Positions 8,847-31,466 of a stretch of DNA of 31,574 nucleotides are shown piece by piece. The notes beneath the pieces are model-generated. The model had not been told where the DNA came from. It searched no databases and saw only the letters and a list, made by a program, of their open reading frames with translations. How positions within the stretch are numbered: the first letter of the stretch is position 1; each line of letters begins with the position of its first letter. Source of the DNA: a virus. The translations under genes and the position numbers were made by a program. The DNA lies in the IMG/VR virus record IMGVR_UViG_3300023174_003203, positions 1 through 31,574 of that record; one strand, written 5' to 3'.

Positions 8847-8864
8847 TAGCAACAAGGATAAAAG

Positions 8865-10625: not shown

Positions 10626-11506
10626 AAAAACTGAAAGTAGCAATTCTCGGAACAGGAAACATAGGAACAGATTTGTTATTGAAGTCGCTGAAGAAGGACT
10701 TTATCCAAGTTGTTGCTTTTGTTGGTAGAAGATTAAATTCCCCTACGATTAAAATTGCAGTTGATAGAGGGATAACCGTATCAGATAGGGGTATATGGTA
10801 TTTCATCGATAATCCAAATACTTGTGATGTTGTGTTTGATTGTACAAATGCAATTGATGCTTTAGAACACTCATCCGTATTTCGTCAGCAAGGCATACGA
10901 GTTATAGATCTTACCCCTTCCAAAGTAGGAAAACTATGCGTACCTGATATCAATGGTGATCTTATCTTGAATACGGACAACATCAACATGATAACCTGCG
11001 GAGGGCAAACTTCTATTCCTATGCTACGGTTGTTATCAAATCGTTGTAGCGGGATAGAGTATATTGAAGTTGTTTCGCAGATTTCATCAAAGAGTGCAGG
11101 AATGGCAACCCGAATAAACATCGATGAGTACATCAGAACTACTAGGGACGCAATTACACAGTTTACAGGATGCGGTAGCACTAAGGTCATTTTAAATTTA
11201 AATCCAGCGGAACCCTGCGTTGATATGCAAACAACAATGTTTATTAAAACTAAGCATATCAATGATAGCAATTTGACAGAAGAAATTGCCGACAAGATAG
11301 AGGAGTTAAAAACATACATTCCTCACTACGAAATGGTTCTTTCACCCACAATAAATGAAAACGGAGTATTGGTTTTGAGTATTCGTGTAAGGGGATCAGG
11401 AGATTATCTTCCAGAGTATGCAGGAAATCTTGATATTATAAACTGTGCCGCAATAAAATCAACAGAGAATCTGTGGGGAGCCATCAATGAAAATCACAAT
11501 AACTGA
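10622..11506 (+). CDS. Acetaldehyde dehydrogenase (acylating), DmpF/MhpF type
   Basis: The 294 residues follow the DmpF/MhpF family closely. There is an N-terminal NAD-binding loop (AILGTGNIGTDLLL, 7-20), the catalytic cysteine C126 in NMITCGGQTSIPM, then INIDEYIRTTRDAI, LNLNPAEPC and, near the end, YLPEYAGNLDII. The reaction in the family is acetaldehyde plus CoA plus NAD+ to acetyl-CoA and NADH. Family members form a channelling complex with the aldolase encoded by the next gene (DmpFG, BphJI). The start overlaps the ThDP enzyme stop by 4 nt and the end overlaps the aldolase by 20 nt. In bacteria the pair normally serves aromatic meta-cleavage; its place in a phage glycan island is unusual. 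Confidence 0.88.
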   Translation: MKKLKVAILGTGNIGTDLLLKSLKKDFIQVVAFVGRRLNSPTIKIAVDRGITVSDRGIWYFIDNPNTCDVVFDCTNAIDALEHSSVFRQQGIRVIDLTPSKVGKLCVPDINGDLILNTDNINMITCGGQTSIPMLRLLSNRCSGIEYIEVVSQISSKSAGMATRINIDEYIRTTRDAITQFTGCGSTKVILNLNPAEPCVDMQTTMFIKTKHINDSNLTEEIADKIEELKTYIPHYEMVLSPTINENGVLVLSIRVRGSGDYLPEYAGNLDIINCAAIKSTENLWGAINENHNN

Positions 11507-12485
11507 CTCCAGCCTACGAGATGGAAATCATAGCGTAAAGCATACTATTAGTCTTGATAGTATTGAACGATATTGTAGATTTGCAGACAAGGCAGGAATC
11601 CCAATCGTGGAGGTCGGACATGGTAATGGATTGGCGGCATCTTCTTTACTGATTGGAAAGGCAGTAAACAGCGACAAAGAGATGCTGTCTGTTGCTCGTA
11701 AATCTTTGAAAACCTCAAAACTAGGAATCCACAGCATTCCTGGATTATCTACTCTTGATGACATCAAGATGGCATTGGATTGTGGCGTTGATGTTGTCAG
11801 AGTTGCTACCCATTGCACCGAGGCAACCTTATCAAAGTCTCACATAGAGTGCCTATCAAAAGCAGGAAATATAGTATTTGGCGTTTTGATGATGAGTGCA
11901 TTGATAGATTCAGATACATTGACAGAACAGGCAAAGATCATGCAGGATTATGGAGCAAACGCGGTGATCGTGATGGATTCTACAGGATCGTATTTACCAG
12001 ACGATGTAGAAGAAAGAATCACCAAACTCAAAAACAGCCTAAAAATCGGTGTAGGGTTTCATGCCCATAACAATTTAGGTTGTGCAGTTGCAAACAGCCT
12101 TAAGGCAGCAGAGTGTGGTGCTGAGTTTATTGATGTGTGTATTCGTGGTTTTGGTGCAGGTGCAGGAAACGCACCACTTGAGATTATGATTCCTGTGATG
12201 GAGCAGAGCGGATTTCAAATGGGAATAGACTTTAAGGAGACCATCAAAGAAGCAGATAGAGTCATGTCATATCTTGTGCCTTCGCAGCCTATTTCTGCGC
12301 CCATCAACATACTCACGGGCTTAAAGAAACTGTTTAGTGGGTTTGAGAAACCAATAATTTCAGCATCTCAACTTCATGGGATTGAATACTCATCCCTAAT
12401 TTTTGAACTCGGTAACAGAAAGTTGGTTGCAGGTCAAGAGGATTTGATTCTAGAAGTAGCGCAAACTCTAAAGAACAAACGATAA
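11487..12485 (+). CDS. 4-Hydroxy-2-oxovalerate aldolase, DmpG/MhpE type
   Basis: The 332 residues have the DRE-TIM aldolase signature LRDGNH with R11, D12 and H15, equivalent to BphI R16, D17 and H20. EVGHGNGL (42-49), VATHCTEA (106-113) and the metal ligands H192 and H194 in GFHAHNN follow, then GAGAGNAPLEIM (223-234). The family makes pyruvate plus an aldehyde from 4-hydroxy-2-oxo acids, or the reverse aldol addition. GGGGAG upstream of the ATG supports the start despite the 20-nt overlap with the dehydrogenase. The terminal TAA shares its last base with the next ATG. Retained catalytic residues imply an active enzyme; its phage substrate could be a sugar-derived aldehyde (inference). Confidence 0.88.
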   Translation: MKITITDSSLRDGNHSVKHTISLDSIERYCRFADKAGIPIVEVGHGNGLAASSLLIGKAVNSDKEMLSVARKSLKTSKLGIHSIPGLSTLDDIKMALDCGVDVVRVATHCTEATLSKSHIECLSKAGNIVFGVLMMSALIDSDTLTEQAKIMQDYGANAVIVMDSTGSYLPDDVEERITKLKNSLKIGVGFHAHNNLGCAVANSLKAAECGAEFIDVCIRGFGAGAGNAPLEIMIPVMEQSGFQMGIDFKETIKEADRVMSYLVPSQPISAPINILTGLKKLFSGFEKPIISASQLHGIEYSSLIFELGNRKLVAGQEDLILEVAQTLKNKR

Positions 12486-13402
12486 TGAAGATACTGATAA
12501 CGGGCGGAAATGGATTTTTAGGTTCAACTCTATCCAAGCATCTATTGATGCAAGGGCATGATGTCTGCATTTCCTCTAGAAACTCTTGCAGAATACAGGA
12601 TATCTTGGAGCGAGTTACTTTCTTTCAGACATCAGATTTATGCATTACTCACACAGAAGAACTGATTCGTTTCTGTCCGAACATAGTGATTGATTGTGCA
12701 TGGAATGGTGGCAATAACTATAGTCAAGTCAATTCTTTAGACCAGTTTAGATTGAACATGGATAGGAGTATTGATTTACTTGAAACCACAAAGAAGATGG
12801 AGAAGAAACCTATGTTTATAGGGTTTGGATCGTTTGCAGAATACGGAATGATACGAACAAGAGCAGAAGAGCATCAAACAGAAACGCCTGTAACTTTCTA
12901 TGGATTGGCAAAGACATCAGTTAAAGAGATGTCAAGACTATTTTGTGAACAGAATGATATCAAATGGACATGGATACGACCTTGTTACATTTATGGGCCA
13001 AATGATGTTCCAACTCGCCTAATACCAAAAGTGATCCATCATTTGCTCAACAAGCAGCCTTTAGTTCTCAATAATTGCAATACTACAATTGATTATCTTC
13101 ATGTATACGATTTCTGTACCGCAATTTCTGCACTCATTGAAACCCAAAAGACTGGAGTGTTCAACATCTGTTCTGGCAACGAATACAGACTTCTTGATGT
13201 AATATCAATGATTCAAACAGAATTGGGATTAGGAGAAATCTCTTACGATGAATCATTTTCTAGAGACTATTCTCCAAAATACATTTGCGGTTCTAATCGC
13301 AAAATTAAACAAGAAACAGGATGGAATTCTACTATAGATTTGCATCAAGGCATTATAGATACAATCTGTAAGACTAATCTATTATATGAAAGAAAGGATT
13401 AA
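12485..13402 (+). CDS. NAD(P)-dependent sugar epimerase/dehydratase/reductase (extended SDR)
   Basis: A 305-residue extended short-chain dehydrogenase. The Rossmann dinucleotide loop is GGNGFLG (7-13), the catalytic pair is in FYGLAK (Y139, K143), and RPCYIYGPNDV plus TIDYLHVYDFC match the substrate-binding half of nucleotide-sugar epimerases and reductases. The one-base overlap with the aldolase stop (TAATG) puts it in the same operon as the ThDP, dehydrogenase and aldolase genes. A reductase acting on the branched product of the ThDP enzyme, as YerF does in yersiniose synthesis, is one possibility; sequence alone does not separate epimerase from reductase. Confidence 0.85.
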   Translation: MKILITGGNGFLGSTLSKHLLMQGHDVCISSRNSCRIQDILERVTFFQTSDLCITHTEELIRFCPNIVIDCAWNGGNNYSQVNSLDQFRLNMDRSIDLLETTKKMEKKPMFIGFGSFAEYGMIRTRAEEHQTETPVTFYGLAKTSVKEMSRLFCEQNDIKWTWIRPCYIYGPNDVPTRLIPKVIHHLLNKQPLVLNNCNTTIDYLHVYDFCTAISALIETQKTGVFNICSGNEYRLLDVISMIQTELGLGEISYDESFSRDYSPKYICGSNRKIKQETGWNSTIDLHQGIIDTICKTNLLYERKD

Positions 13403-13403
13403 T

Positions 13404-14057
13404 ATGACTATCAAAGATTTAGTAACTGTTACTCCCGAAGGATTAATTTGGCCTATCAATGGAGATGTAACTTATAACTGGCTATCACAGGAAACCAAAG
13501 AGCAAGGTGGGCATCTATCTGTACTTTCAAAGTACCTAAAGAAAACGAATGTAATGATTCAGGCTGGCGGAAATTGCGGCTTAACCCTCATTCCATTCAT
13601 GGACACATTTGACCAAATCTATACCTTTGAGCCAGATCCACTAAATTTTTACTGCTTGGTTAACAATCTTCCCAAGAAAAATGTATATAAGATTCAGGGC
13701 TGCTTGGGGGAAGACAATAGAATGGTAGATATTGTCAATCCTGCCACTAATAACGATGTTGGTGCATTTCATATCAACTCTCTAGGTGGAGCAATACCAA
13801 AGTTCAAGATAGACGATCTTCAGTTGGAACAATGTGATTTGATTATGTTGGACATTGAGGGATACGAATACAACGCATTAATGGGCGGCATTCAGACAAT
13901 AGCAAAATATAGACCTGTGGTGTGTGTAGAGTGTTACTGGTTGCCTAGATTTGGGGCCTCTACGCAACACATTGACACCCTTCTAGCACGATTTGGATAT
14001 AAGTATGTCGAGTCATATTTTCAAGATAGAATTTATGTCTCTGAAGCCAACGATTGA
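13404..14057 (+). CDS. FkbM-family methyltransferase
   Basis: The frame is open from 13386, but the ATG at 13404 has AAGGA in front and avoids overlap, giving 217 residues. SAM-binding motif I appears as MIQAGGNCGLTLIPF (51-65), then YTFEPDPLNFYCL (73-85) and LIMLDIEGYEYNALMGG (143-159), the order typical of FkbM proteins. These O-methylate sugars or secondary metabolites and are common in polysaccharide clusters. Here it could methylate a sugar of the glycan made by the surrounding genes. The acceptor is not identifiable. Confidence 0.85.
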   Translation: MTIKDLVTVTPEGLIWPINGDVTYNWLSQETKEQGGHLSVLSKYLKKTNVMIQAGGNCGLTLIPFMDTFDQIYTFEPDPLNFYCLVNNLPKKNVYKIQGCLGEDNRMVDIVNPATNNDVGAFHINSLGGAIPKFKIDDLQLEQCDLIMLDIEGYEYNALMGGIQTIAKYRPVVCVECYWLPRFGASTQHIDTLLARFGYKYVESYFQDRIYVSEAND

Positions 14058-14073
14058 TTTGAAGAAAAATTAA

Positions 14074-14811
14074 ATGTCAGAAACTTTTGGCAGCAAAATA
14101 TTATTAATGACGGGCGTTTCTGATATTCTTCCTCCGAAGACTAATGATGTGTCAATGGAGGAAGTATTCAAATTGACTCTACCATCAAAGCAAAGGTATG
14201 CCGAAAAGCACGGATATGATCTTCTGACGATGAGATCTTTTGGCAGCGGCAAGGAATACGGGTTTAAGGATACGAATGTAGGATTACTTCGTATGGTACG
14301 AGCATTTGAGATGCTGAAGCATTACGATATTGTGATGTGGATAGATGCAGATGCAATTATAACAAACGATAAATTTACAATAAAAGACTCATTTAATCTG
14401 AATCAAGATCATTGCTTTTATGCGTCATACGAGTGGGCTGAATGGTGCGTACCTCATCAGACATTTAGTACAGGCAATTTTATACTTCAGCGAACTAAAG
14501 ATACCGAAACTTTATTCTCTACTTTTCTTGAAGTAGGCAAGAATCACATTGAAGGGTTTGGTGAGGAACAAAACGCAATGAACTGGATCTACAAAAACAC
14601 TAATCTAGTAAGTATAATGAAGATTCTTGACCATCTATATCTAAACGCAGTTCCTTACGCTATGTACATGGATAGGATAAGATGTTATAATGACATACAT
14701 CAGAAAATATACAGTCCGTGGAAAGATACTGATTTCTTAGCACATATTGGCGGTCTTCCAAACAAGAACAGAATAAACATACTGAACACGCATTTTAAGA
14801 ATTACTTGTAA
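14074..14811 (+). CDS. Glycosyltransferase resembling the GT34 (GMA12/MNN10) group
   Basis: The 245-residue protein has KQRYAEKHGYDLLTM (39-53), then LLRMVRAFEMLKHYDIVMWI with DAD at 91-93. That combination (a K..YA..HGY element before WIDADAI) marks galactosyl or mannosyl transferases of the GT34 type. HQTFSTGNFILQR and GFGEEQNAMN further on match the middle of this group, and HIGGLPNKNR lies close to the end. The gene begins 16 nt after the FkbM methyltransferase stop with no clear strong ribosome binding site. The transferred sugar is not known. Confidence 0.75.
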   Translation: MSETFGSKILLMTGVSDILPPKTNDVSMEEVFKLTLPSKQRYAEKHGYDLLTMRSFGSGKEYGFKDTNVGLLRMVRAFEMLKHYDIVMWIDADAIITNDKFTIKDSFNLNQDHCFYASYEWAEWCVPHQTFSTGNFILQRTKDTETLFSTFLEVGKNHIEGFGEEQNAMNWIYKNTNLVSIMKILDHLYLNAVPYAMYMDRIRCYNDIHQKIYSPWKDTDFLAHIGGLPNKNRINILNTHFKNYL

Positions 14812-14830
14812 AACATATCACGAGGAACCA

Positions 14831-15625
14831 ATGACATTACCTTCTTATAGCATCACAATTCAAACCTATGTTCATCGTTTTGAACCATATTTCAAGCCGC
14901 TATTGGCTAGAGTACACAAGCAAAGACCAAACATCGAGAAATTGGTTTTTGTCAATGGGCAACATAAAGAAAAGTTTGATGACGGATATCGCAGAGAAAT
15001 ACTGCAATATGCATCGTACTTTTCAAACACTTTTCTGCTGATGTCTCCGATTGTGCGCGGATGTGCGTTCATGTGGAACAACTCAATAAATTATACTAGT
15101 AGTGAATATGTGTTAGTCTTGAGTGATGATGTAATTATTCTTGATGGATTTTTTGACGAGTTTGAAGCCATGCTTGCAAAGAATCACGAACTAGGGGACG
15201 AGTCATTCCGAATTAATTATCATTGGGGGCATTTCTGCATCTATAGGCAGGATGTTCTTGACAAGGACAACAGGGTTGGTTATTTTGATGAGCGTTTGAT
15301 TGGATTTGGAGAAGAAGATGGCGATTGGATGTGGAGGTATCAGGATCGCTACAATAGACACATGAGAAACTACCTCACAGACAAGTTGCCATACAACACA
15401 GATGAAAAATGCTTGCCAGGAAAAAATACAAGGACTCATAGCGATACAAAATACAGCGCATTTAACCGCGAATTCATGGGAACAAAATTAGAACACGATC
15501 CAACTGGTACTAATGACGGGTGCGGTATATCCAGAGGATTTGCATTAAAATTGAAACCGGGAATGCAAACACCTAATTTCTATCCTGGTGAAAATTGGTA
15601 TAGAGAAAACATTGATAAACTATGA
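14831..15625 (+). CDS. Family 2-like glycosyltransferase
   Basis: A 264-residue GT-A type protein: SYSITIQTYVHRFEPYF (5-21), VFVNGQHKEKFDDG, then YVLVLSDDVIILDGFF (93-108) with the metal-binding acids at 99-100, and FGEEDGDWMWRY (about 162-173) in the region of the catalytic base. CGISRGFALKLKPG follows. GAGG lies about 8 nt before the ATG. The stop overlaps the next start by 4 nt (ATGA at 15622-15625). Donor and acceptor are unknown. Confidence 0.75.
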   Translation: MTLPSYSITIQTYVHRFEPYFKPLLARVHKQRPNIEKLVFVNGQHKEKFDDGYRREILQYASYFSNTFLLMSPIVRGCAFMWNNSINYTSSEYVLVLSDDVIILDGFFDEFEAMLAKNHELGDESFRINYHWGHFCIYRQDVLDKDNRVGYFDERLIGFGEEDGDWMWRYQDRYNRHMRNYLTDKLPYNTDEKCLPGKNTRTHSDTKYSAFNREFMGTKLEHDPTGTNDGCGISRGFALKLKPGMQTPNFYPGENWYRENIDKL

Positions 15626-16449
15626 TATCAGTTTATGGTTCAACTGGATTTATTGGTAGTCGATACACAAAAATGTATTCGGACATTACTATGCCCATAA
15701 CGAGATCCGAAGATGCCCCTCAAAGCAAAGATATATTATATTTCATTAGTACTACGCACAACTACCACATTTTCGATGACCCGCATAGAGACATCGAAAC
15801 GAATCTGAATAAGTTGATATCTGTTCTTGAGGCTAGCAGGAAATCCTACTTCAAAGACATTACTTTTAACTTCATAAGTTCATGGTTTGTTTATGGCAAA
15901 AACTGCTCTCTTAATACTAGGGAAACCGATCTGTGCGACCCTACAGGATTCTATTCAATCACAAAAAGAGCAGCAGAACAAATGCTGATATGTTATTGTC
16001 AGACCATGAATATGAACTATAGAATTCTTCGTCTTACAAACATTATAGGTGAATCCGACAATAGAGCATCTGCAAAGAAGAACGCATTACAGTACATGAT
16101 AGGGCTTCTTAAAAGAAACGAAACGGTGAAGATATATGACGGCGGATCTAATATTAGAGACTTCATGTATGTGGATGAGGCGTGTAGAGCAATAAATGCT
16201 TGTATGCATAATGCCCCCACAGGACAGATAGTCAACATAAGCAATACGCAGCCAATAACAATAGGTGAAGTCATTCGATATTGCAAGAAGAAGTTGGGTT
16301 CATCGTCAGAAATAGTATCAATTGATGCTCCTGATTTTCATAAAGTGGTTCAAGTGAAAGATGTTTGCTTGAATAGTGATAAACTTCGTTCTTATGGCTA
16401 TCAATCAAGCATAGATACATGGCAAGCCGTAGACAGACTTCTTAGGTAA
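15622..16449 (+). CDS. NAD-dependent epimerase/dehydratase-like SDR
   Basis: A 275-residue extended SDR with the cofactor loop GSTGFIG (6-12), catalytic FYSITKRAAEQ (Y111, K115), LRLTNIIGESD and VKIYDGGSNIRDFMYVDEAC in the substrate domain. It is somewhat shorter than the usual 300-340 residues, with little between the cofactor loop and the first helix. It is most similar in style to nucleotide-sugar epimerases and reductases. The start overlaps the upstream glycosyltransferase (ATGA). It may supply or finish the activated sugar used by its neighbours (inference). Confidence 0.8.
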   Translation: MISVYGSTGFIGSRYTKMYSDITMPITRSEDAPQSKDILYFISTTHNYHIFDDPHRDIETNLNKLISVLEASRKSYFKDITFNFISSWFVYGKNCSLNTRETDLCDPTGFYSITKRAAEQMLICYCQTMNMNYRILRLTNIIGESDNRASAKKNALQYMIGLLKRNETVKIYDGGSNIRDFMYVDEACRAINACMHNAPTGQIVNISNTQPITIGEVIRYCKKKLGSSSEIVSIDAPDFHKVVQVKDVCLNSDKLRSYGYQSSIDTWQAVDRLLR

Positions 16450-16463
16450 TTGAAAGGTATATT

Positions 16464-17357
16464 ATGAACATAGTTACAACAGGCGGTAGAGGTTTTATTG
16501 GTAGTCACTTTGTAGAGAAGGCATTAGAGAACGGTCATTTTGTGGTCGATATAGACTGCATGAGTTACTGCTCCCGCGAATCTCTGCCATTCGATTCGCA
16601 TCCAAATTACAAGCATCAGAAGATGGATATATGCGAAGTAAAGCATCTACCTTCTTGTGATGTTGTTGTGAATTTTGCAGCAGAAACCCATGTTGATAAC
16701 TCCATTAATGACACAAATCCGTTCATGCACAGCAATGTGATTGGAGTCCATAATTTGCTAGAGATCATTCGCGGAAAGCAAACCCATGAGCGACCTCTTT
16801 TCATTCAGATAAGCACCGATGAAGTTTACGGAGATCGTGCTCATGGTGGGTTTACTGAAACTGATAGACTCACACCAAGCAATCCGTACTCCGCATCAAA
16901 GGCAGCAGCAGAGATGTTCGTGCTGTCCTATCATCGTACATACGGACTGAACTATTTGATTACTCGCAGTTCCAACAACTACGGACCACGACAGTATTAC
17001 GAAAAACTGATCCCCAAGACATTAAAGTGTATTGACACAAACAAGAAGATTCCTCTGCACGGAGATGGTTCTTATGTCCGAGACTGGATTTATGTAAAGG
17101 ACAATGTTGATGCCATATACTCCCTGATTGAATCAGGTGTCAAGAATGATGTGTTCAATATTGGAGCAAACAATCACCTTACCAACCTTGATGTGGTTAC
17201 TGATCTTCTACATTCGTTTGGAAAAGAAACCGATCAGATTCAGTTTGTATCTAATCGTTGGGGTCAGGATTTGCGGTATTCTCTTGATACATCCAAGATC
17301 AATTCCTTGGGTTGGACACCAAAGCATACGAAAGGTATATTCAAGTGGTGGAACTAA
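16464..17357 (+). CDS. dTDP-glucose 4,6-dehydratase-like enzyme (RmlB family)
   Basis: 297 residues, shorter than the about 350 of RmlB. GGRGFIG (7-13) binds NAD. NFAAETHVDNSI (70-81), STDEVYGD (117-124) with the acid pair D119-E120 used in dehydration, and NPYSASKAAAE (140-150) with Y142 and K146 are all RmlB hallmarks, as is RSSNNYGPRQYYEKLIP. The enzyme converts an NDP-glucose to the 4-keto-6-deoxy form. STDE rather than the TSDK seen in CDP-glucose 4,6-dehydratases favours the RmlB branch, yet the nucleotide is not certain. GAAAGG lies upstream of the ATG. The product would feed the RfbH-like gene that overlaps its 3' end. Confidence 0.85.
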   Translation: MNIVTTGGRGFIGSHFVEKALENGHFVVDIDCMSYCSRESLPFDSHPNYKHQKMDICEVKHLPSCDVVVNFAAETHVDNSINDTNPFMHSNVIGVHNLLEIIRGKQTHERPLFIQISTDEVYGDRAHGGFTETDRLTPSNPYSASKAAAEMFVLSYHRTYGLNYLITRSSNNYGPRQYYEKLIPKTLKCIDTNKKIPLHGDGSYVRDWIYVKDNVDAIYSLIESGVKNDVFNIGANNHLTNLDVVTDLLHSFGKETDQIQFVSNRWGQDLRYSLDTSKINSLGWTPKHTKGIFKWWN

Positions 17358-18685
17358 AAATACATGATGCCGACAAGAAGGCTATGCTTGAACAACTCGT
17401 CACCGAACTCGTGGCTTCCAAGAAGAAGCCTTGGGTTGCAGGGCAAGATTGGGTTCAGTATGCTGGTTCGTATTTGGACGAGAAAGAGTATATTGCAGCA
17501 ATAGGATGTTTGCTTGACGGTTGGTTTGCATTGGGAGAGAATGGGATTCGGTTTGAGAACAAGTTTCCGCAGAGACTCGGAAAGGATCACGGTTGCCTTT
17601 CAAATAGTGGTTCTAGTGCAAACTTGCTTATGGTGTCTTCTCTGACATCCCGTAAACTACATTTTCTTCCCAAGGGGTCTAAAATCATCACTCCCGTTGC
17701 AGGATTTCCTACAACAATAAACCCAATTATACAGAATGGGTTTGTGCCTGTCTTTATTGATATTGAACTTGATACGCTGAATCTGAATATTGAACAGTTG
17801 GAAGCAGCGGCAAAGGCTGGTGCATCTGCTTTGATTTTTGCCCATGTTTTGGGAAATCCTCCAAATATGGATGCAGTCATGGACATTGTGAAGCGATATA
17901 ATCTCATCCTGTTGGAAGACTGTTGTGATGCTCTTGGCAGCACCTACAAGGGAAAGCCACTAGGATCATTTGGTGAGATGGCTACTTGTTCGTTCTATCC
18001 TGCACACCATATGACTATGGGAGAGGGTGGATTTGTTGCTACTCGTACCAAAGAGCAAGAAATGGTAGTAAAGAGTATGAGGGAGTGGGGTCGTGGCTGC
18101 TATTGCTCGGGAAAGGCAGCGTCATGCTTGAAGAACGGAATGTGTAAGAAGCGGTTCAGTAATTGGCTTCCCGCTCTTCCTGATGAGGTGTTTGACCACA
18201 AGTATGTGTATGAAGAGATTGGATACAATCTTAAACCACTTGACCTACAGGCTGCTATTGGATTGGTTCAGATGGAGAAACTTGATGCCATCATTCTAAA
18301 GAGAAAGCACAACTATAATCGGTTGATGGAAGTGTTTTCCCGATACGAAGATAAGTTTGTTTTGCCACGAGCAACAGAGGGTGCAGATCCCTCTTGGTTT
18401 GCTTTTCCTGTTACCGTTAAAGATGGAGCAGGATTTAAGAGAACAGAACTAACTATGTTTATGGAAGACAACAAAATACAGACGCGCAACTACTTTGGTG
18501 GAAATATTCTGTTGCAACCGGGATACGCTCACTTGTCTGATGGTGATCCTGTTAAGATGTATCCAAACGCAACCAAGGCAACCACAAATACTTTCTTCTT
18601 TGGAACAAGCCCTGTGATTACAGATGAGCAGTTGGATTATGTTGCTACTGTTGTAGATAAGTTCTTTAGCACTATTTTAGTATGA
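17312..18685 (+). CDS. rfbH: RfbH-like NDP-4-keto-6-deoxyglucose 3-dehydrase (DegT fold, iron-sulfur)
   Basis: 457 residues of the DegT/DnrJ/EryC1 fold. SFYPAHHMTMGEGG (227-240) has histidine (H232) where aminotransferases have the PLP lysine, the signature of E1/RfbH 3-dehydrases. C205, C263 and C265 reproduce the C-x57-C-x-C spacing of the E1 [2Fe-2S] ligands; the fourth is C272 or C278. The family removes the 3-hydroxyl of a 4-keto-6-deoxy sugar using PMP and electrons from a reductase; no reductase is seen here. The ATG at 17312 overlaps the dehydratase by 46 nt. GTG codons at 17345/17348, preceded by a GAAAGGTATATT that also lies before 16464, and an ATG at 17384 are alternative starts. 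Confidence 0.88.
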   Translation: MDTKAYERYIQVVELKIHDADKKAMLEQLVTELVASKKKPWVAGQDWVQYAGSYLDEKEYIAAIGCLLDGWFALGENGIRFENKFPQRLGKDHGCLSNSGSSANLLMVSSLTSRKLHFLPKGSKIITPVAGFPTTINPIIQNGFVPVFIDIELDTLNLNIEQLEAAAKAGASALIFAHVLGNPPNMDAVMDIVKRYNLILLEDCCDALGSTYKGKPLGSFGEMATCSFYPAHHMTMGEGGFVATRTKEQEMVVKSMREWGRGCYCSGKAASCLKNGMCKKRFSNWLPALPDEVFDHKYVYEEIGYNLKPLDLQAAIGLVQMEKLDAIILKRKHNYNRLMEVFSRYEDKFVLPRATEGADPSWFAFPVTVKDGAGFKRTELTMFMEDNKIQTRNYFGGNILLQPGYAHLSDGDPVKMYPNATKATTNTFFFGTSPVITDEQLDYVATVVDKFFSTILV

Positions 18686-19611
18686 AGGCATTGATTACTG
18701 GAGCGGCAGGGTTTATTGGGTCAAATCTAGTTGACCATCTGATTGGTATTGGTTGGGATGTTGTTGGTATAGACAATGAATCTAGTCTGGCTCACGATCA
18801 ATTCTACTACAATCCAAAGGCTTCATATGTTCCCAAAGAAGAAGCAGACATTTCTACAGAAAAGCCGTGGAAATCACTAGCCAAAGAAAAGTTTGATTAT
18901 GTGTTTCACATGGGTGCTGAGTGTAGTATTCAGCAATGCATAGAAAATCCTGCCCTGTGTATTTCTACCAATATCTTGGGCACTGTTAACACACTAGACT
19001 ATGCGGCAAAAAATGGAGTTAAAAGATTTGTCATGTCTTCCACATCATCTGTGTATTCTGGTTGTGATTACATGGCGGATGAAAATGAAGAGCCTATTTG
19101 TATAAATCCATATTCTTCAACTAAACTTTCGGGAGAAGTTTTCTGTAAGCAGTATAGTATGACAACAGAGTTGGATACTGTTATTCTTAGATACTTTAAT
19201 GTATATGGAGAGCGACACACTGTTCGTGGATCGTATGCTCCCGTAATAGGAGTCTTTCAGCGTCAACTAAAAGACAACTCTGCATTTACAATAGTTGGTG
19301 ATGGTGAACAGAGAAGAGACTTCGTTCATGTTTTGGATGTTGCTAAAGCAAATGTTCTAGCCGCTCAAAATTCCATAATAAACAATCGGTTAAACGCTGA
19401 AGTTTTTAATATTGGAACTGGGGTTAATTATTCGGTAAATGAAGTGGCTGATCTAATTTCCACAAAAAATACTAGAGTTAATCTTCCTTCTCGTTCAGGT
19501 GAGGCGAGAATAACACTATGCGATTATCGTAAGGCACGCGATTGGCTTGGTTGGAGCCCAAGTATTAAACTTTCAGATTGGATAGTTTCTGTTGACAACA
19601 TGCTAATTTGA
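18682..19611 (+). CDS. Nucleotide-sugar 4-epimerase-like SDR
   Basis: 309 residues with GAAGFIGSNLVDHL (7-20), VFHMGAECSIQQCIENP (74-90), MSSTSSVYSG (118-127), NPYSSTKLSGE (142-152, Y144 and K148), LRYFNVYGERH and DGEQRRDFVHVLDVA. The pattern fits UDP-glucose and UDP-N-acetylglucosamine 4-epimerases (GalE/WbpP-like). The start overlaps the RfbH-like stop by 4 nt (ATGA). It is the last gene of the glycan island; the gp41 promoter -35 box (19592) lies inside its final codons. Confidence 0.82.
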   Translation: MKALITGAAGFIGSNLVDHLIGIGWDVVGIDNESSLAHDQFYYNPKASYVPKEEADISTEKPWKSLAKEKFDYVFHMGAECSIQQCIENPALCISTNILGTVNTLDYAAKNGVKRFVMSSTSSVYSGCDYMADENEEPICINPYSSTKLSGEVFCKQYSMTTELDTVILRYFNVYGERHTVRGSYAPVIGVFQRQLKDNSAFTIVGDGEQRRDFVHVLDVAKANVLAAQNSIINNRLNAEVFNIGTGVNYSVNEVADLISTKNTRVNLPSRSGEARITLCDYRKARDWLGWSPSIKLSDWIVSVDNMLI

Positions 19612-19626: not shown

Positions 19627-21048
19627 ATGACTAGCGACAGAACAGAAATTCTCATTCTGCGAACCTTACTCCATGATGAAGAGTACGGGCGCAAGGTTCT
19701 TCCGTTTTTAAAGCCTGAATACTTTACAGAACGGGATGAGCGAGTCATCTATGATTGCATCAGTACTTTTTATACCAAGTATAACAAGCAGCCAACTGTT
19801 GAGAGTTTGCTTATTGATTTGAGTAAGCGGGATAACTTGAGTGAAACTGAATTCAAGACAATTAAGGATATCATCAAATCATTCAAGACTCACGACAAGT
19901 TGGAAACTCAATGGTTGCTAGACAATACCGAAGAGTTCTGTAAAGAAAAGGCACTATACAATGGCATCATGGAATCCATTCAAATTATTGATGGAAAGTC
20001 CAAAGACAAAACGAAGACTGCTATTCCAAGTATTCTTTCTACTGCTCTTGCAGTTAGTTTTGATACTCATATCGGTCACGATTTTATTGAAGACGCAGAC
20101 AAGCGATACGACTTCTATCATACCGTAGAGAAGCGTATTGCTTTTGATATTGATCTGCTGAACAAGATTACCAACAACGGTACTCCCTACAAGACTCTAA
20201 ATGTGTGTCTCGCGGGCACGGGCGTGGGTAAGTCTCTGTTCCTCTGTCACCATGCAGCCAACTGTCTTATGCAAGGCAAGAATGTGCTGTACATCACCTG
20301 CGAAATGGCGGAAGAGCGTATTGCAGAACGAATTGATGCTAATCTCATGGATACAAGTTTAGATGATCTGAAGGCTTTGCCCAAGGATATCTACGACCGA
20401 AAATTGAAGCGTATCATGGATCAGACTACAGGCAAACTGATTATCAAAGAGTATCCCACCGCCACAGCAAGTGTCATGCACTTCAAGCACCTTCTTGATG
20501 AACTGAGATTGAAGAGAAACTTTACTCCTGAAATCATCTTTATTGATTACCTGAACATCTGTGCGTCATCTCGCATGAAGCAGAGTGCCACGGTGAATTC
20601 GTATACTTTCATCAAGGCGATTGCAGAAGAGTTGAGAGGTCTTGCAGTTGAGACAGGTGTGCCGATCTTTACGGCTACTCAAACCAATCGCTCAGGATTC
20701 TCTAGCACTGATGTAGAGTTGACGGATACTAGTGAATCATTTGGTTTGCCACAAACTGCGGACTTCATGTTTGCATTAGTTTCAACCGAAGAACTTCAGG
20801 GGCTTGGTCAAATTATGATTAAGCAGTTGAAGAACCGATATGCCGATCCTGCATCCAATCGTAGATTTGTGGTTGGTATTGATCGTAGCAAAATGAAACT
20901 TTTTGACTTGGATGAATCGGCTCAACGAGGCATTATTAATATGCCTGAAGTTAAGGATGAAGATGAAGAAGATGCCGGTGAATTTAAAAGTTTTCGTGAA
21001 CGCATGAACGATAAATTTAAAAAAAGAGATTTCGCTGATTGGTCTTGA
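19627..21048 (+). CDS. 41: Replicative DnaB-type helicase (T4 gp41)
   Basis: 473 residues. The N-terminal helical domain starts EILILRTLLHDEEYGRKVLP, like gp41 and DnaB relatives. The RecA-type motor has Walker A AGTGVGKS (196-203), the E of YITCEMAEE (222-230) and Walker B EIIFIDYLNIC (302-312). TATQTNRSGF (about 350-359) matches the DnaB H3 region. It unwinds DNA at the fork and works with the primase at 30444. There is no ribosome binding site: TATACT ends only 6 nt before the ATG. No in-frame start with an SD sequence precedes the conserved N-terminus, so leaderless translation is likely. Confidence 0.93.
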   Translation: MTSDRTEILILRTLLHDEEYGRKVLPFLKPEYFTERDERVIYDCISTFYTKYNKQPTVESLLIDLSKRDNLSETEFKTIKDIIKSFKTHDKLETQWLLDNTEEFCKEKALYNGIMESIQIIDGKSKDKTKTAIPSILSTALAVSFDTHIGHDFIEDADKRYDFYHTVEKRIAFDIDLLNKITNNGTPYKTLNVCLAGTGVGKSLFLCHHAANCLMQGKNVLYITCEMAEERIAERIDANLMDTSLDDLKALPKDIYDRKLKRIMDQTTGKLIIKEYPTATASVMHFKHLLDELRLKRNFTPEIIFIDYLNICASSRMKQSATVNSYTFIKAIAEELRGLAVETGVPIFTATQTNRSGFSSTDVELTDTSESFGLPQTADFMFALVSTEELQGLGQIMIKQLKNRYADPASNRRFVVGIDRSKMKLFDLDESAQRGIINMPEVKDEDEEDAGEFKSFRERMNDKFKKRDFADWS

Positions 21049-21337: not shown

Positions 21338-21411
21338 GGGAGTGGGGGGTCTTTGGTTGGCCCAGATCGGTTTATACCCGGTTGGAACAGGTTCGAATCC
21401 TGGCACTCCTA
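21338..21411 (+). tRNA. Probable tRNA-Ile, anticodon UAU
   Basis: A 74-nt cloverleaf can be drawn by hand. Acceptor stem 21338-21344 with 21404-21410 (7 pairs, first G-U); D stem GGGT with GCCC around a loop containing GG; anticodon stem ATCGG/CCGGT (21366-21370 and 21378-21382) enclosing TTTATAC, so the anticodon is TAT (21373-21375); T arm with loop TTCGAAT (21392-21398) and one mismatch at the outer T-stem pair; discriminator A at 21411. CCA is not encoded. Weak points are G instead of U at position 8, an extra base near position 26 and the T-stem mismatch. UAU would read the AUA isoleucine codon. Confidence 0.65.
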
Positions 21412-21445
21412 CTAGATACTAACAACACTTTAAAGGAGATACACA

Positions 21446-21811: not shown

Positions 21812-22321
21812 TTGAAGGTTCTCCTCCTAAACGCTAGCGAGGAAGTGTTAAATGTGATTGATTGGAAGCGGGCGGTTAATCTCCTGTGTTCAGGAAAAGC
21901 CGCCAAGCCTTATGGTCACGACGACTTCTATCGTATTCCTACACCCCGAGGGCACTATGAACTACCCACCGCAATCGTGTTGGTGGAGTATATTAATTTG
22001 CCGTATCGGATCAAGGGAGCCACTCGCAAGGGTGTGTTTAGGCGAGACAAGTACGAATGCCAGTATTGTGGGTGTTCTTTGAATGCCGCTAATGGTACTA
22101 TTGACCATGTGATGCCTGCTAGCCGTGGTGGTAAATTTGAATGGAAGAATGTAGTGGCTTCTTGCCGAAAGTGCAACTACAAGAAGGCAAACCGAACCCC
22201 ACAAGAAGCCAAGATGCCGCTAGCCAAGCCTCCTATTGTGCCTAACAGGAAGATGCTTGTAATGACTATCATTGACCATATGGGGCCGAAAACTTGGTCA
22301 AGATGGGTAGAGGAGGAGTGA
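21812..22321 (+). CDS. HNH endonuclease
   Basis: The frame begins with TTG at 21812, 3 nt after the preceding stop, with AAGGGC upstream, so TTG is the likely start. The 169 residues open with KVLLLNASEEVLNVIDWKRA, as in many phage and bacterial HNH proteins of this kind. The HNH core is CQYCG (C83, C86), TIDHVMPASRGG (D98, H99), WKNVV (N113), SCRKCNYKKANRT (C118, C121, N127). Two CxxC pairs suggest a structural zinc. It may be free-standing (homing-like) or have a role in phage DNA metabolism. No intron is visible near it. Confidence 0.88.
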   Translation: MKVLLLNASEEVLNVIDWKRAVNLLCSGKAAKPYGHDDFYRIPTPRGHYELPTAIVLVEYINLPYRIKGATRKGVFRRDKYECQYCGCSLNAANGTIDHVMPASRGGKFEWKNVVASCRKCNYKKANRTPQEAKMPLAKPPIVPNRKMLVMTIIDHMGPKTWSRWVEEE

Positions 22322-22342: not shown

Positions 22343-23572
22343 ATGCTGAACTTTTCATCCTTTTCAAAACCACAATCTATAACAGAAGCCGTTAAAGAAA
22401 ACAAAGGTGGGCACATTAGCCACCTTGAAGACGGTATGTTTGAACAGGGATTTGCGGGATTACAGGCATCCATTAAAATTTTAAAAGATGTTGTTAGCGG
22501 TGTTTCCTCGTCAGGAAAGTCTGTTCCATCTTTGAATGTATCCACAAAATGGGATGGTGCTCCTGCTCTTATTGCAGGCATCCATCCTGAAACTAAAAAG
22601 TTCTTTGTGGCTACCAAGTCTTTCTTTTCTAAGACTTCAAAAGTTAACTATACAGAAGCAGATATCAAAGCCAACCACGAAGGTGGTGTGGTTGCTAAAC
22701 TGATAGATGCTTTAAAGTATCTGAAGCCGCTAAACATCAAGGGCATGGTTTGGGGAGACTTGCTGTTTACACAAGGCGAGAAGAAAAAAGAAACTATTGA
22801 CGGTAAGAGTTACATCACCTTCCGTCCCAATACCATTACCTACGCTGTTCCTGCGGATAGTCCCACAGGCATGGAAGTAGCCTCTGCTAAGTTTGGTATT
22901 GTGTTCCATACTAAATGGAGCGGTAGTGGCGATCCTAAAGAGCGCGGATCATGGTCGCCTGGTGTTCCTTCAATGGGAACATCTACAGGAGTATGGGTTG
23001 TGGATGCCAAGGTTCCAACTCTACCAAAAAATCTTTTGCTTCAAACCGCAGAAGAAAAACAGATTGCTGTTCTCACAAAACAGATTGAAGCAGAAGCCAA
23101 GAACTTGAAGTCTGCACTAGACTCATTTAACAAGAGCGAAGCATCCGAGTATGTGTCGCAGTACATCAATTCTACAGTACGAGCAGGACTTTCAAACAAT
23201 ACTACAAACGGTCTTGCAACATTCATTCAGGCTCGTCTTGCTACAGAAGCAGACGCACTAAAGACTGAAGCAAAGAAAAAAGAGAAGCAGGAAAAAGGCG
23301 CAAGAATTACCAAGTATCTCAAGGCTTACGCTTCTCAAATTGATAAACTATTTGCACTTCACGCACTTATAGCCAAGGCTAAGAGTTTGGTTATTTCTAA
23401 ACTTTCTCTTACCCAAAGTGTCTCAACCTTTATTGCAGACAAGGATGGATATCGTCCAACTGCACCTGAAGGTTTCGTGGCAGTTTGTGGTAAGACATGT
23501 AGTATTGTGAAACTTGTTGATCGCAACGAGTTCTCCAAGAACAACTTCAATCTAGCAAAGGAATGGAAGTGA
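22343..23572 (+). CDS. Ligase/nucleotidyltransferase-like protein with KxDG motif
   Basis: 409 residues. VSTKWDGAPALIAG (66-79) contains K69-W-D-G72, the motif I lysine signature of ATP-dependent DNA and RNA ligases and capping enzymes. GMVWGDLLF (134-142) lies where motif III is expected, and FGIVFHTKW (184-192) could be motif IIIa or IV. A Lys/Ala/Glu-rich helical region (about 235-360) follows and may be a coiled coil. It resembles a protein family of unknown function in T4-like cyanophages. The N-terminus MLNFSSFSKPQSITE then A looks like a T4 head-targeting leader with an ITE|A cleavage site. The late-type motif at 22329 and lack of an SD point to late, leaderless expression. Activity is inferred. 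Confidence 0.6.
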   Translation: MLNFSSFSKPQSITEAVKENKGGHISHLEDGMFEQGFAGLQASIKILKDVVSGVSSSGKSVPSLNVSTKWDGAPALIAGIHPETKKFFVATKSFFSKTSKVNYTEADIKANHEGGVVAKLIDALKYLKPLNIKGMVWGDLLFTQGEKKKETIDGKSYITFRPNTITYAVPADSPTGMEVASAKFGIVFHTKWSGSGDPKERGSWSPGVPSMGTSTGVWVVDAKVPTLPKNLLLQTAEEKQIAVLTKQIEAEAKNLKSALDSFNKSEASEYVSQYINSTVRAGLSNNTTNGLATFIQARLATEADALKTEAKKKEKQEKGARITKYLKAYASQIDKLFALHALIAKAKSLVISKLSLTQSVSTFIADKDGYRPTAPEGFVAVCGKTCSIVKLVDRNEFSKNNFNLAKEWK

Positions 23573-26559
23573 AAAAACTCTCACAGATCATCACCGAAGC
23601 ACCCAAGAAAGAAAAGTCAATTGTTATTGGCGTTGGACGCTTTAACCCACCAACCACAGGACACGAAGTTCTTGTAAACAAGGTGTTGGAAGAAGCCCAA
23701 AAGATTGGTGCTGAGTTTTGCATTTACGCTTCCTACTCGCAAGATCCAAAGAAGAATCCGCTAGACTCAAAAACTAAACTTGAGACTTTAAAGAAGTTTT
23801 TCCCCAAGATGAAGTTCCAACTGATGCCAAAGCCTTTTTCAAACAAGGACGGCAAGACGGTTGCAGGGCCTTATGCTATTGCACAAAAGTTAAGCGATGC
23901 GGGTTATACCAAAGTACGCATCGTGACTGGTGCAGATCATACGGCAGAATACAACAAGATTAAGCAATACATTGATCTTGATCCAAAGAGTACCGAGGGC
24001 TACAAGTTCTCAGACTTCAAAGTGATTAGTGCTGGCGACCGCGATCCTGATTCAGAAGGTGTGCAGGGCATGTCAGCATCCAAGATGCGTAAAGCCGTAT
24101 TTGACGGAGACTTTGATGCGTTTCGCGCAGGTGTACCCGCGCATGTGAAGGATGCTGAAGCCAAGAAGATTTTCATGGCTGTGAAAAAGGGAATGCAACT
24201 AAAGGAAGAATGGTTATGGGAAGAGAAGTCATCTAATGTAACTTTACTTTGTTTGACTTCTGCTGAAGGCAGCACAGACGGCTCAAGTATTGAAAAGATG
24301 GAAAAGTCTTGCAAGAAAAAGGGCATAGAATTTCATGTAATCAAGATGAAGTATGCTCATATTAATTCAATGGAAGCCAGCGGCGAAAAGGTTACAATTC
24401 AAATTACTGAAGGCGAAGACACCAAGAAGGTTGTGATTAAGCCTCAAAATACCCTATGCTTTGTGCGTGGTGGTGTAATGAACTCGGAACTTGGAATTGG
24501 TCTCGCCACAATTCTACAAAACAATGGTGTGTTCATGGTTAACGAAAAGGGTGCTATGGAGATCTGTGCAAACAAGTTGCAGACTGCTCTAGCCCTTCAG
24601 AAGTATAACCTACCACACCCACGAACTGCATTTGTTTCCGATGAAGATTCGGTGGCAAATGCTATGAAGTCTATTGGTGGAAAGTATCCTGTTGTTGTGA
24701 AGACTGTTACAGGCGCAGAAGGTATCGGTGTTTCAATTATTGAAAGCGAGAAGTCTTTGCGTTCTGTGCTTCAGTCTCTATGGAAGTTTGGTGCAGAAGT
24801 TATCCTCCAAGAGTTTTTGCCAGGATTTAAGAACGATGTTCGCTCAATTGTTCTTAACGGCAAGATATTCGCCTGTGCAAAGCGTGACAAGGCTAAAGGC
24901 GATTTCAGAACTAATATTGCTAGGGGTTCCTCAGGGGGAGCATTTAAACTAAGTCCAGAAGAGATTGAACTTGTGGAAAAGGTTGCACTTGTAAGCAAGT
25001 GCTATTATGTTGGTGTTGACCATGTTGTGGTTGACGGCAAACCTTATGTTATTGAAATGAATGCCTCACCAGGTAGCGGTAATGTTTATACACTCTACAA
25101 GGACGGCAAGGCTACTGAAGAAGTAGAAGGTCAAGGATTGATGGATGCTTTGATTGAGCATGTCAGCAATAAGTCAAACTGGAAACTGTTTAGTAATGTA
25201 GCAGTCAGCGAAAATATTACTGTTGATGGCATTGAATACAACGCAAAAATTGATACAGGCAACAGCGGTTACAATTCTATTGATGCTACAGACATAAAGA
25301 TTAATGAAAAGAATCACACAGTCTCGTTTAAGATAAACGGTAAGAGTTTAACCAAACCTATTGTTAGTCGCATCAAGATTAAGCGTGGCGGAACTGAAGA
25401 ACGAGAAATTCGTCCAATAGTTTTGATGGATGTGGAATTTGCTGGTCGTGAATACAAGAATGTAAAATTCTCTCTTGCTAATCGTAGCCATATGGAATAC
25501 AAGGTTCTGATTGGTTTGCGTTTCTTGCGTCAAACTGGAATGCAAGTGGATCCTAAAGAAATGTCTGCGGCAAAGCCAGAACCAAAAACTGAAGAGGTTG
25601 CATTGGGTGAAGCGGCAGCACAGGCAAGTCCAAAGGATAAAGAAACTGGTTTGCCAAAGAAATATGTTTCAGGACTAAGCAAAGCAGATGCCAAGGCTAG
25701 AGTTCAGCAGTTTGCTGCACGAAAGGCTCGTTCTGATTCTGATCCTAAGGCTTGGGAAAAACTTCCCGGCGATCCAGAAAAAACTGCAAGACGCTCCAAG
25801 TATTCAATAGCATTTGCTAAAAAATTCGGAACAAAGGCGGAAGCCTTTGAATTACAGGATATTTTAGATCAAGCGGTAGAATTGGATGAAGGACGAAAGT
25901 ATAGTGATCGTATTGAACGAGCACGCCAAATTCAGACTAAAGCATACAGTAAAGAAGAAAAGGATGCTTGGGATGTGTACATCCAAGAACAGAAGTATCA
26001 GATGTATTCAGATCATACAACAAATACCCCATCAACTCTAGATGAGGATTTTGAGTGGATGTTATACGAGAATACCGACGAGAATAGTTTCTCAAGAAAA
26101 ATATTTAAAGAAATTTTAGAGATTGGTACAAACAAAATTCGTAAAACTTACGCTAAAGATACTCCAGGTCAAGATGCTATTGCTGAAGAAATGGATGATG
26201 AAGAGAAAGATCGTATCTACAAAGAATGGTCTAAACTTATAAATATGGGAGCCAAAGAACTTCAGAATTTTATAGATTCAGAAGACGGCAAAGAAGCAGG
26301 ATTGTCTCGTAAAGAAGCAGGCAAAGCAGGAACTAGTGGAGGTAAAATCACCTCAGGTCGTGATTCGGCTCGTGCTATTGTCCGAATGCTTGGAAAGAAG
26401 AAAGATGATTGGCAGGCTGGCGATTGGAAATGGGCCAATAAACAAATCTCATTTATCAGCCGAATGAAGGGAGCAAAAGGCCCACTTCGTGATGATAAAG
26501 GCGAACCAACTCGTAAACTACTAGCCCTAAAGATTTGGGGACACAATCCGGAGAAATGA
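23563..26559 (+). CDS. Multi-domain fusion: HIGH nucleotidyltransferase, RimK-like ATP-grasp, RimB-like retropepsin, phage C-terminal domains
   Basis: 998 residues from the ATG; a GTG at 23569 is better placed behind AAGGA (23558-23562) and gives a 4-nt GTGA overlap. Domains: 20-215 cytidylyltransferase-like (GRFNPPTTGHEVLV as HIGH box, late GMSASKMRKAV in place of ISSTxxR); 295-545 ATP-grasp of the RimK type (KYPVVVKTVTGAEGIGV, ILQEFLPGFKNDVRSIVLNG, VIEMNASPG); 545-665 RimB-like retropepsin (AKIDTGNSGYNSIDA, REIRPIVLMDVEF, YKVLIGLRFL); 695-750 basic Asp/Pro-rich domain (SDSDPKAWEKLPGDP); 905-998 ending LALKIWGHNP. RimK adds glutamates to proteins such as S6, and RimB-type partners act in the same system. 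The N-terminus has an ITE|A site. The combination suggests protein or peptide modification, possibly of host targets (inference). Confidence 0.75.
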   Translation: MEVKKLSQIITEAPKKEKSIVIGVGRFNPPTTGHEVLVNKVLEEAQKIGAEFCIYASYSQDPKKNPLDSKTKLETLKKFFPKMKFQLMPKPFSNKDGKTVAGPYAIAQKLSDAGYTKVRIVTGADHTAEYNKIKQYIDLDPKSTEGYKFSDFKVISAGDRDPDSEGVQGMSASKMRKAVFDGDFDAFRAGVPAHVKDAEAKKIFMAVKKGMQLKEEWLWEEKSSNVTLLCLTSAEGSTDGSSIEKMEKSCKKKGIEFHVIKMKYAHINSMEASGEKVTIQITEGEDTKKVVIKPQNTLCFVRGGVMNSELGIGLATILQNNGVFMVNEKGAMEICANKLQTALALQKYNLPHPRTAFVSDEDSVANAMKSIGGKYPVVVKTVTGAEGIGVSIIESEKSLRSVLQSLWKFGAEVILQEFLPGFKNDVRSIVLNGKIFACAKRDKAKGDFRTNIARGSSGGAFKLSPEEIELVEKVALVSKCYYVGVDHVVVDGKPYVIEMNASPGSGNVYTLYKDGKATEEVEGQGLMDALIEHVSNKSNWKLFSNVAVSENITVDGIEYNAKIDTGNSGYNSIDATDIKINEKNHTVSFKINGKSLTKPIVSRIKIKRGGTEEREIRPIVLMDVEFAGREYKNVKFSLANRSHMEYKVLIGLRFLRQTGMQVDPKEMSAAKPEPKTEEVALGEAAAQASPKDKETGLPKKYVSGLSKADAKARVQQFAARKARSDSDPKAWEKLPGDPEKTARRSKYSIAFAKKFGTKAEAFELQDILDQAVELDEGRKYSDRIERARQIQTKAYSKEEKDAWDVYIQEQKYQMYSDHTTNTPSTLDEDFEWMLYENTDENSFSRKIFKEILEIGTNKIRKTYAKDTPGQDAIAEEMDDEEKDRIYKEWSKLINMGAKELQNFIDSEDGKEAGLSRKEAGKAGTSGGKITSGRDSARAIVRMLGKKKDDWQAGDWKWANKQISFISRMKGAKGPLRDDKGEPTRKLLALKIWGHNPEK

Positions 26560-26560
26560 T

Positions 26561-26821
26561 ATGAAGAGTTTTAAAGATTTTAAAAATGAAATAGAACTGC
26601 AAGAGACTATTAAGGCTGTAAAGAATAAAGCCAAACAGTCTGGCATTTCGTATGGAATTTTAAAACAAGTTTATGACCGTGGTATGGCGGCTTGGAAGGG
26701 TGGGCACAGACCTGGTGCTACTCCCCAACAATGGGCTTTAGCACGAATTAACTCATTTTTAACAGGTGGTAAAACCCGAAGAACCGCAGACGCTGATCTT
26801 TGGAAGAAAGCCAAGGGATAA
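26561..26821 (+). CDS. Small DUF5824-like phage protein with a T4-type leader
   Basis: An 86-residue protein starting 1 nt after the fusion gene, with GGAG at 26550-26553. The core SGISYGILKQVYDRGMAAWK (27-46), GHRPGATPQQWALARINSFL (48-67) matches my memory of the cyanophage family DUF5824, which also occurs fused to larger phage proteins. The first ten residues, MKSFKDFKNE, resemble the T4 internal-protein targeting sequence MKTYQEFIAE. The function is unknown; the W/R-rich core suggests nucleic acid or protein binding. The family name is from memory and unverified. Confidence 0.7.
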   Translation: MKSFKDFKNEIELQETIKAVKNKAKQSGISYGILKQVYDRGMAAWKGGHRPGATPQQWALARINSFLTGGKTRRTADADLWKKAKG

Positions 26822-30443: not shown

Positions 30444-31466
30444 ATGAGTTACTTGGATGTGAAATATATCAATATGATAGCGGCACGGCTAGCCCGCTTT
30501 GCTTGGAAGAAAACCAACCAACTAGCAGTTTGTAGGTGTCCGATATGTGGCGATTCCAAGAGAAACAAGTCCAAAACTCGCTTCTACTTATACGAGAAGA
30601 AGGGCGGATTTTTTGTAAAGTGCCACAACTGTGACTTCGGAACTACCCTTTCTAAATTCCTTGAACAGTTTGACCGGAGATTATATGATGAATACACTCT
30701 TGAAAAATACCGAAGCGGTCTTACCAGCAGAAACGAAGCCGAGCCTACCTTCGTCTTTGAACAGCCAAGATTTAGAAGAACTGAAGTATCTGGTGAATCA
30801 TCCACGGGAGACTATGGAATCGGGCTTCCCACCGTATCGTCGCTTCAGGAGATTCATCCTGCGAGGCAGTTTTTAGAGTCTCGTAAAGTTCCCAAAGATA
30901 AATTTTCTCTGCTGTATTATGCCGAGAACTTTGGTGAGTGGGCAAAGACTATTGATCCTAGTAAAGAATTAGGCGATGAACCTCGTCTAATTATTCCTAT
31001 CATTCAGAACGGCAAACTTATTGGAGCCAACTGTCGTTCGTTTAATCCTAAAAGCATTCGTTACATTACTCTTCGTAAAGAGCAAACTGAAGATCGTCTA
31101 TGGTTCGGATTAGAGCGAGTTGATCCTAAACAACCTGTGATTGTGGTTGAAGGGCCTCTAGACTCTCTGTTTCTTCCAAACGGTGTGGCTATGGCAGGAT
31201 TAGGTAGGTGTTCTTCTTTGCCACATGAACTAGGAGCAAAACCCATCTTTGCGCTAGACAACGAACCCCGAAATAAAGAACTCGTAAAGGTTATGGAAGA
31301 TCTTATAGGTAACGGAAGAACCGTATGCATTTGGCCCTCGTCCGTTCATCAAAAGGATATTAATGATATGGTTCTTGGAGGTTTAAATCCCCATCAGATC
31401 ATTCTTGAAAATTCCTGTAGTGGTGCGGCTGCTAAATTGAAACTAATGAGTTGGAAACGATGTTGA
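30444..31466 (+). CDS. 61: DnaG-type primase (T4 gp61)
   Basis: 340 residues, the size of T4 gp61. The N-terminal zinc-binding domain has CPICGDS (C32, C35) and KCHNCDFG (C60, C63). The TOPRIM catalytic core follows: VVEGPLDSLFLPN with E236 and D240, then FALDNEPRN (D272, E274) and HQKDINDMV with its acid. IIPIIQNGKLIGANCRSF resembles the RNA-polymerase-like basic subdomain. It makes RNA primers for the gp41 helicase and gp43 polymerase in this window. The start overlaps the predicted transcription start, so it is leaderless or nearly so. Confidence 0.93.
   Translation: MSYLDVKYINMIAARLARFAWKKTNQLAVCRCPICGDSKRNKSKTRFYLYEKKGGFFVKCHNCDFGTTLSKFLEQFDRRLYDEYTLEKYRSGLTSRNEAEPTFVFEQPRFRRTEVSGESSTGDYGIGLPTVSSLQEIHPARQFLESRKVPKDKFSLLYYAENFGEWAKTIDPSKELGDEPRLIIPIIQNGKLIGANCRSFNPKSIRYITLRKEQTEDRLWFGLERVDPKQPVIVVEGPLDSLFLPNGVAMAGLGRCSSLPHELGAKPIFALDNEPRNKELVKVMEDLIGNGRTVCIWPSSVHQKDINDMVLGGLNPHQIILENSCSGAAAKLKLMSWKRC

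Follow-up and report, generated by a model that had tools for sequence, protein, structure and literature searches.

Phage genes for RimK-like ligases have been noted since 2008, their target not being known. Monier et al. described RimK homologues of phages on marine contigs, several of them with the ATP-grasp domain followed by DUF785 (PF05618), and suggested for them a role like the phage modification of translation proteins (PMC2530865). In bacteria, the RimBK hybrid of Desulfotalea psychrophila holds a RimK ATP-grasp and a RimB retropepsin in one polypeptide; studies of this hybrid and of the separate RimB and RimK of Pseudomonas fluorescens found that purified RimB needs contiguous glutamates, cuts when given at least six of them, also cuts within an internal linker of eight, and stimulates RimK (PMC11957791). 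The third relevant system is the cytidyltransferase-DUF5824 protein of the Kyanoviridae (PHROG 3041), of which gp130 of phage HTVC008M is an example.

We analysed a virus contig of 31,574 bases (the window) that carries T4-like replication genes (DNA polymerase gp43, UvsX, gp41 and gp61) and encodes a 998-residue fusion protein with features of all three systems. Like the D. psychrophila hybrid, the fusion unites RimK and RimB in one polypeptide, whereas that hybrid has RimB first, is cellular and lacks the nucleotidyltransferase, DUF5824 and DUF3140; activity was measured for the bacterial proteins, while the fusion is known from its sequence. The marine phage RimK proteins (PMC2530865), gene 5 of Pelagibacter phage Mosig and gene 66 of Yersinia phage YerA41 share with the fusion the order RimK then RimB-type domain. 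The Mosig and YerA41 proteins are 28-30% identical to it over this module but stand alone (461-473 aa) at other genome places, that of Mosig near gp43 and gp45. HTVC008M gp130 has the same nucleotidyltransferase, DUF5824 and DUF6267/gp41 neighbourhood, but is devoid of RimK, RimB and DUF3140, and its DUF5824 is undivided.

Domain architecture of the fusion protein

The features of the locus are as follows.

19627..21048, +: gp41-like replicative helicase, context marker (phrog_19, 5e-123)
22343..23572, +: DUF6267 partner gene (409 aa) with a K69-W-D71-G72 motif, overlapping the fusion gene by 10 bases (PF19782, 6e-93; synteny)
23563..26559, +: 998-aa fusion, in the order nucleotidyltransferase, RimK ATP-grasp, RimB retropepsin, half DUF5824, DUF3140/DUF6321 (ORF, Pfam, PHROG, synteny)
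23563..24228, +: HIGH-superfamily (NMNAT-like) nucleotidyltransferase domain, residues 1-222 (PHROG 3041/395, Foldseek NadD, conservation)
24238..25197, +: RimK-family pre-ATP-grasp and ATP-grasp, residues 226-545, with K380, R441, GDFRTN 446-451, D486, E498 and N500 (PF08443, TIGR00768, PDB 7qyr, invariance)
25198..25566, +: RimB-type retropepsin, residues 546-668, catalytic D564-T-G (PF05618, solved relatives 9g58/9g59, DTG 68/68)
25567..25632, +: linker after the protease, in sister lineages the site of 5-8 consecutive Glu, in the window EE only (sequence comparison)
25633..25827, +: N-terminal half of DUF5824, PKKYVSGLSKADAKAR... (BLASTP to HTVC008M gp130 residues 405-487; Pfam profile 1-62 in relatives)
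26224..26538, +: DUF3140/DUF6321 C-terminal domain, residues 888-992 (Pfam; DUF3140 in 27/27 members)
26561..26821, +: separate 86-aa ORF, C-terminal half of DUF5824 (PF19141, 3.4e-19, profile 55-123)
30444..31466, +: gp61-like DNA primase, context marker (phrog_47, 1.7e-69)

A sequence-only reading of the window had proposed a single 998-residue protein joining a nucleotidyltransferase to RimK and RimB, and this is confirmed: the ORF has an ATG start and is intact, and all three domain calls hold. Since the same domain order recurs in about 68 distinct aquatic viral proteins found in scans of viral contigs, with invariant motifs and a dN/dS of about 0.03-0.09 in the three catalytic domains within the window's lineage, we exclude chance or misassembly as the origin of the fusion. 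No phage record in a database match search covers 80% of its length. The same reading had called the architecture unusual, which stands for the whole fusion, while the joining of RimK to RimB has precedents: a paper of 2008 described phage RimK proteins that end in a RimB domain (PMC2530865), and a bacterial hybrid with the two domains the other way round was purified in 2025 (PMC11957791). AlphaFold gave a weak full-length model (pLDDT 63), from which the domain arrangement cannot be read.

For the RimK domain, PF08443 matches residues 337-506 with E=2.9e-29 and 102 bits (cut-off 21), NCBIfam TIGR00768 reaches 145.6 bits, just above its cut-off of 143.4, and the solved RimK 7qyr matches at 2.1e-26 (Foldseek 2.3e-10). 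The motifs for ATP, Mg and substrate (Lys, Asp, E-x-N, Arg, DFR[ST]N) are all present, placing the domain in the RimK family; K380, R441, R449, N451, D486, E498 and N500 are each conserved in 70/70 distinct rows of an alignment that takes in two stand-alone relatives. These results bear out the proposed ATP-grasp together with its Mg ligands; its border needed correction, in that a pre-ATP-grasp domain occupies residues ~226-336. We infer that the domain would be active and would use glutamate.

The RimB-like retropepsin, also called correctly, follows in the same chain, which makes the protein a RimB-RimK hybrid of the order RimK-RimB. PF05618 matches residues 556-668 with E=6.8e-12 and 45.9 bits (cut-off 27), chains 9g58, 9g59 and 2pma are its solved relatives, and D564-T-G is invariant in all 68 sequences that cover it. 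The reading had named two findings that would count against it, namely no ATP-grasp or retropepsin fold in the predictions, and loss of metal- or nucleotide-binding residues across homologues. Neither was made, and Mg ligands and DTG are conserved.

The N-terminal domain carries GRFNPPTTGH at residues 25-34 and SASKMR at 171-176. It matches the 'cytidyltransferase' families PHROG 3041 (4.8e-52) and PHROG 395 (2.7e-46), and by Foldseek nicotinate-nucleotide adenylyltransferase (NadD; 3.1e-5, TM 0.56 by target), a fold match that does not fix the substrate class (NMN, choline-P, glycerol-P or other). The Pfam CTP_transf_like match stays under its cut-off (17.4 vs 21 bits). Among the distinct fused proteins that cover these positions, G33 and H34 are invariant in 66/66 and R176 in 67/67. 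With the T/HxGH motif, a second motif containing Arg and a matching fold, the domain belongs to the HIGH superfamily, as had been claimed from its HIGH box. In L027 (6001-9603) the first motif is kept and the second is degraded (ESTDAR for SASKMR), and in this subclade the RimK-RimB module is intact despite that change.

At the C-terminus, DUF3140 matches at 8e-8 and DUF6321 below its cut-off. Between protease and C-terminus lies only the N-terminal half of DUF5824; the C-terminal half is the next ORF in the window's lineage, both halves form one protein in HTVC008M, and the short downstream ORF is present in nearly all complete loci. Because the domain is split between two genes, their products probably bind each other.

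Gene context and origin

Wherever a contig covers the place just upstream of the fusion, DUF6267 is found there. The KxDG motif noticed in this neighbour proved conserved, K69, D71 and G72 being invariant in 29 sequences. Its predicted fold is confident (pLDDT 83); the best Foldseek match, RNA ligase 5d1o, is not significant (E=1.0), and a Pfam search found no ligase family in it. The fusion gene sits within the replication block (gp43, UvsX, gp41, gp61), and there is no excess of T4-type late promoter motifs (1 found vs 1.5 expected), so its description as a late phage protein is not supported. Elsewhere in the window, a large block of glycosyltransferase, sugar epimerase, aminotransferase and methyltransferase genes lies between UvsX and gp41 (5989-19611), and a tRNA-Ile (anticodon TAT; 21338-21412) is followed by an HNH endonuclease ORF (21812-22321).

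In Kyanoviridae, among them HTVC008M, Melnitz and C48C1, the genes just after gp41 encode DUF6267 and a nucleotidyltransferase-DUF5824 protein that has neither RimK nor RimB. HTVC008M gp130 aligns on both sides of the RimK-RimB module, with fusion residues 1-224 and 691-772. By these alignments and the shared synteny, the fusion is best described as a core nucleotidyltransferase gene of the Kyanoviridae into which a RimK-RimB module was inserted. In HTVC008M, DUF6267 and the nucleotidyltransferase are separated by a gene for a zeta-toxin/AAA_33-like P-loop kinase (L138:6748-7410).

A first genome scan returned no bacterial relatives of the fusion and a second mainly distant RimK-like matches. 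The two best of the second scan, L112 and L113, carry RimK-RimB genes; we rejected a bacterial origin for them, as both look like phage contigs binned in MAGs (Izimaplasma, Alphaproteobacteria). A PADLOC search for anti-phage defence gave no match. A diverged copy of the fusion on a 145-kb contig (L030:5995-9282) is in many broken frames, from sequencing errors or decay.

Poly-glutamate runs in the linker and in gp22

Just after the retropepsin, within 45 aa, 34 of the 66 distinct fused proteins carry 5-8 consecutive Glu (32 runs of at least six), and several of those without a run end before the linker site. No other run of at least five was found in these proteins, and none of at least six in 159,040 aa of neighbouring ORFs. 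The runs are coded by mixed GAA and GAG, which disfavours codon slippage as their source. On the tree, the linker run is widespread in sister lineages, some of which have it shortened; the window's lineage is without it.

Across 33 contigs of the phage group (2.2 Mb), every site of six successive Glu codons (GARx6), its position checked by hand against ORF coordinates, lies either in the fusion linker or in one other gene. The latter, with the gp21 protease gene on one side and the gp23 capsid gene on the other, matches the prohead scaffold gp22; the gp21 protease gene is still present in these phages. Our search found three contigs with both fusion and gp22: G001 and G014 carry both tracts, and G002, a lineage-mate of the window and the one such contig with gp22, carries neither. 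The window record is a fragment in which gp22 was not seen. Joint occurrence of the two tracts at the level of metagenomes, inspected by eye, is left out of this evidence. Close-clade gp22s (at least 62% identity) have E7-E11 in 17/17 distinct sequences, two of them partial, while more distant ones have no Glu run above E4. Examples of gp22 with runs of 7-8 Glu are L141:1677-2774 (-) and L142:2910-4022 (+), and runs reach 11 in the relatives L157-L161.

Controls outside the group differ. The gp22s of 11 T4-like phages there reach at most E4, and we found no PF05618 domain in those 11 genomes. Altogether, 18 named phage genomes (7 + 11) hold two GARx6 sites, one of which starts outside any annotated gene, and we found none in the genomes of Mosig and YerA41. 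The local setting is alike in linker and gp22: Lys-rich, then the Glu run, then Leu/Ile/Val. In summary, the sister-lineage tracts would be protease targets or docking sites, a correlation drawn from three contigs, one gp22 clade and the controls; the pattern leans towards phage proteins as targets of the protease.

Proposed function and alternatives

Our preferred, still tentative reading, somewhat short of an even chance, is that a nucleotidyltransferase core protein has been equipped with a glutamate writer-eraser, whose protease in sister lineages would cut its own linker and the scaffold gp22. At the expense of ATP, the RimK domain would add amino acids, glutamate most likely, onto a protein C-terminus, and the RimB-type retropepsin, acting as a dimer, would cut runs of glutamate; with the two tethered, a poly-Glu tag would limit its own length. 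In the sister lineage, a cut at its own linker would release the DUF5824/DUF3140 part, and the second likely target would be the N-terminal part of gp22; the retropepsin would then assist head maturation, or be carried into the prohead on the scaffold. These targets do not apply directly to the window's own protein. In the window's lineage, where neither tract was seen, it would fall to the RimK domain to produce the tag. The missing linker run in that lineage and the missing run in the gp22 of G002 argue against the writer-eraser reading, as do the gp21 protease gene, which is retained, and the formation of amide bonds of other kinds by RimK-like domains; the same-contig evidence comes from three contigs, the presence and absence of the tracts may reflect few evolutionary events, and a scaffold may have poly-Glu for its acidic charge alone.

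The live rival, itself rather unlikely, is host takeover, with the RimK-RimB module adding glutamates to host ribosomal protein S6 and trimming them in favour of phage translation. In 2008 such a role was put forward for the RimK proteins of phages (PMC2530865); the location of the gene among those for replication would fit an effect exerted in the course of infection. The structures nearest to the RimK domain by Foldseek are S6-modifying RimKs, one bound to RpsF, and the TIGR00768 score is just over the subfamily cut-off. Yet PRK10446, the equivalog model specific for S6, gives 83.6 bits where its cut-off is 331, so the domain is not of the S6 type by that model, and host takeover would not account for the poly-Glu tracts that relatives have in linker and gp22.

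Less likely still, the poly-Glu runs would be binding sites through which the RimB domain docks on gp22, the enzyme being enclosed in the head and injected. Docking predicts the same tract pattern as cleavage, and the stand-alone RimK-RimB protein of YerA41, a phage whose particles were analysed by LC-MS/MS (PMC7354516), is annotated as structural, but that particle proteome included many enzymes, which makes presence there weak evidence, and pure docking would not need the invariant DTG.

Equally improbable is small-molecule synthesis, with nucleotidyltransferase and ATP-grasp making an aminoacyl- or peptidyl-nucleotide or an NAD-related metabolite under regulation by the retropepsin: the nucleotidyltransferase fold is nearest to NaMN/NMN adenylyltransferases with motifs kept, and ATP-grasp enzymes often produce small molecules, but a protease of the poly-Glu type would be unexpected, the L027 subclade has kept RimK-RimB beside a degraded second motif, and the nucleotidyltransferase occurs without RimK-RimB in the phages compared and RimK-RimB without the nucleotidyltransferase in Mosig and YerA41, so that neither needs the other.

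The writer-eraser reading extends to a bolder one, which we consider unlikely as a whole: in a tailed phage, a poly-Glu retropepsin within a multi-enzyme protein would process both itself and gp22, with a tethered ligase able to write the same signal, which would be a counterpart in a prokaryotic virus to the maturation of retroviral polyproteins. The retroviral protease is likewise a retropepsin inside a larger virus protein whose possible targets are itself and a capsid-building protein. This would be an analogy only: cleavage by the fusion is predicted, its expected specificity is poly-Glu, and a T4-type gp21 protease is also present.

The poly-Glu tracts offer a concrete and cheap way to ask whether the RimB domain cuts its own linker and gp22. 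If it does not, the fusion would still be a new conserved multi-domain enzyme. If it does, some T4-like phages would have a second protease, of the retroviral class, in head assembly, and protein polyglutamate chemistry would be at work in a virus.
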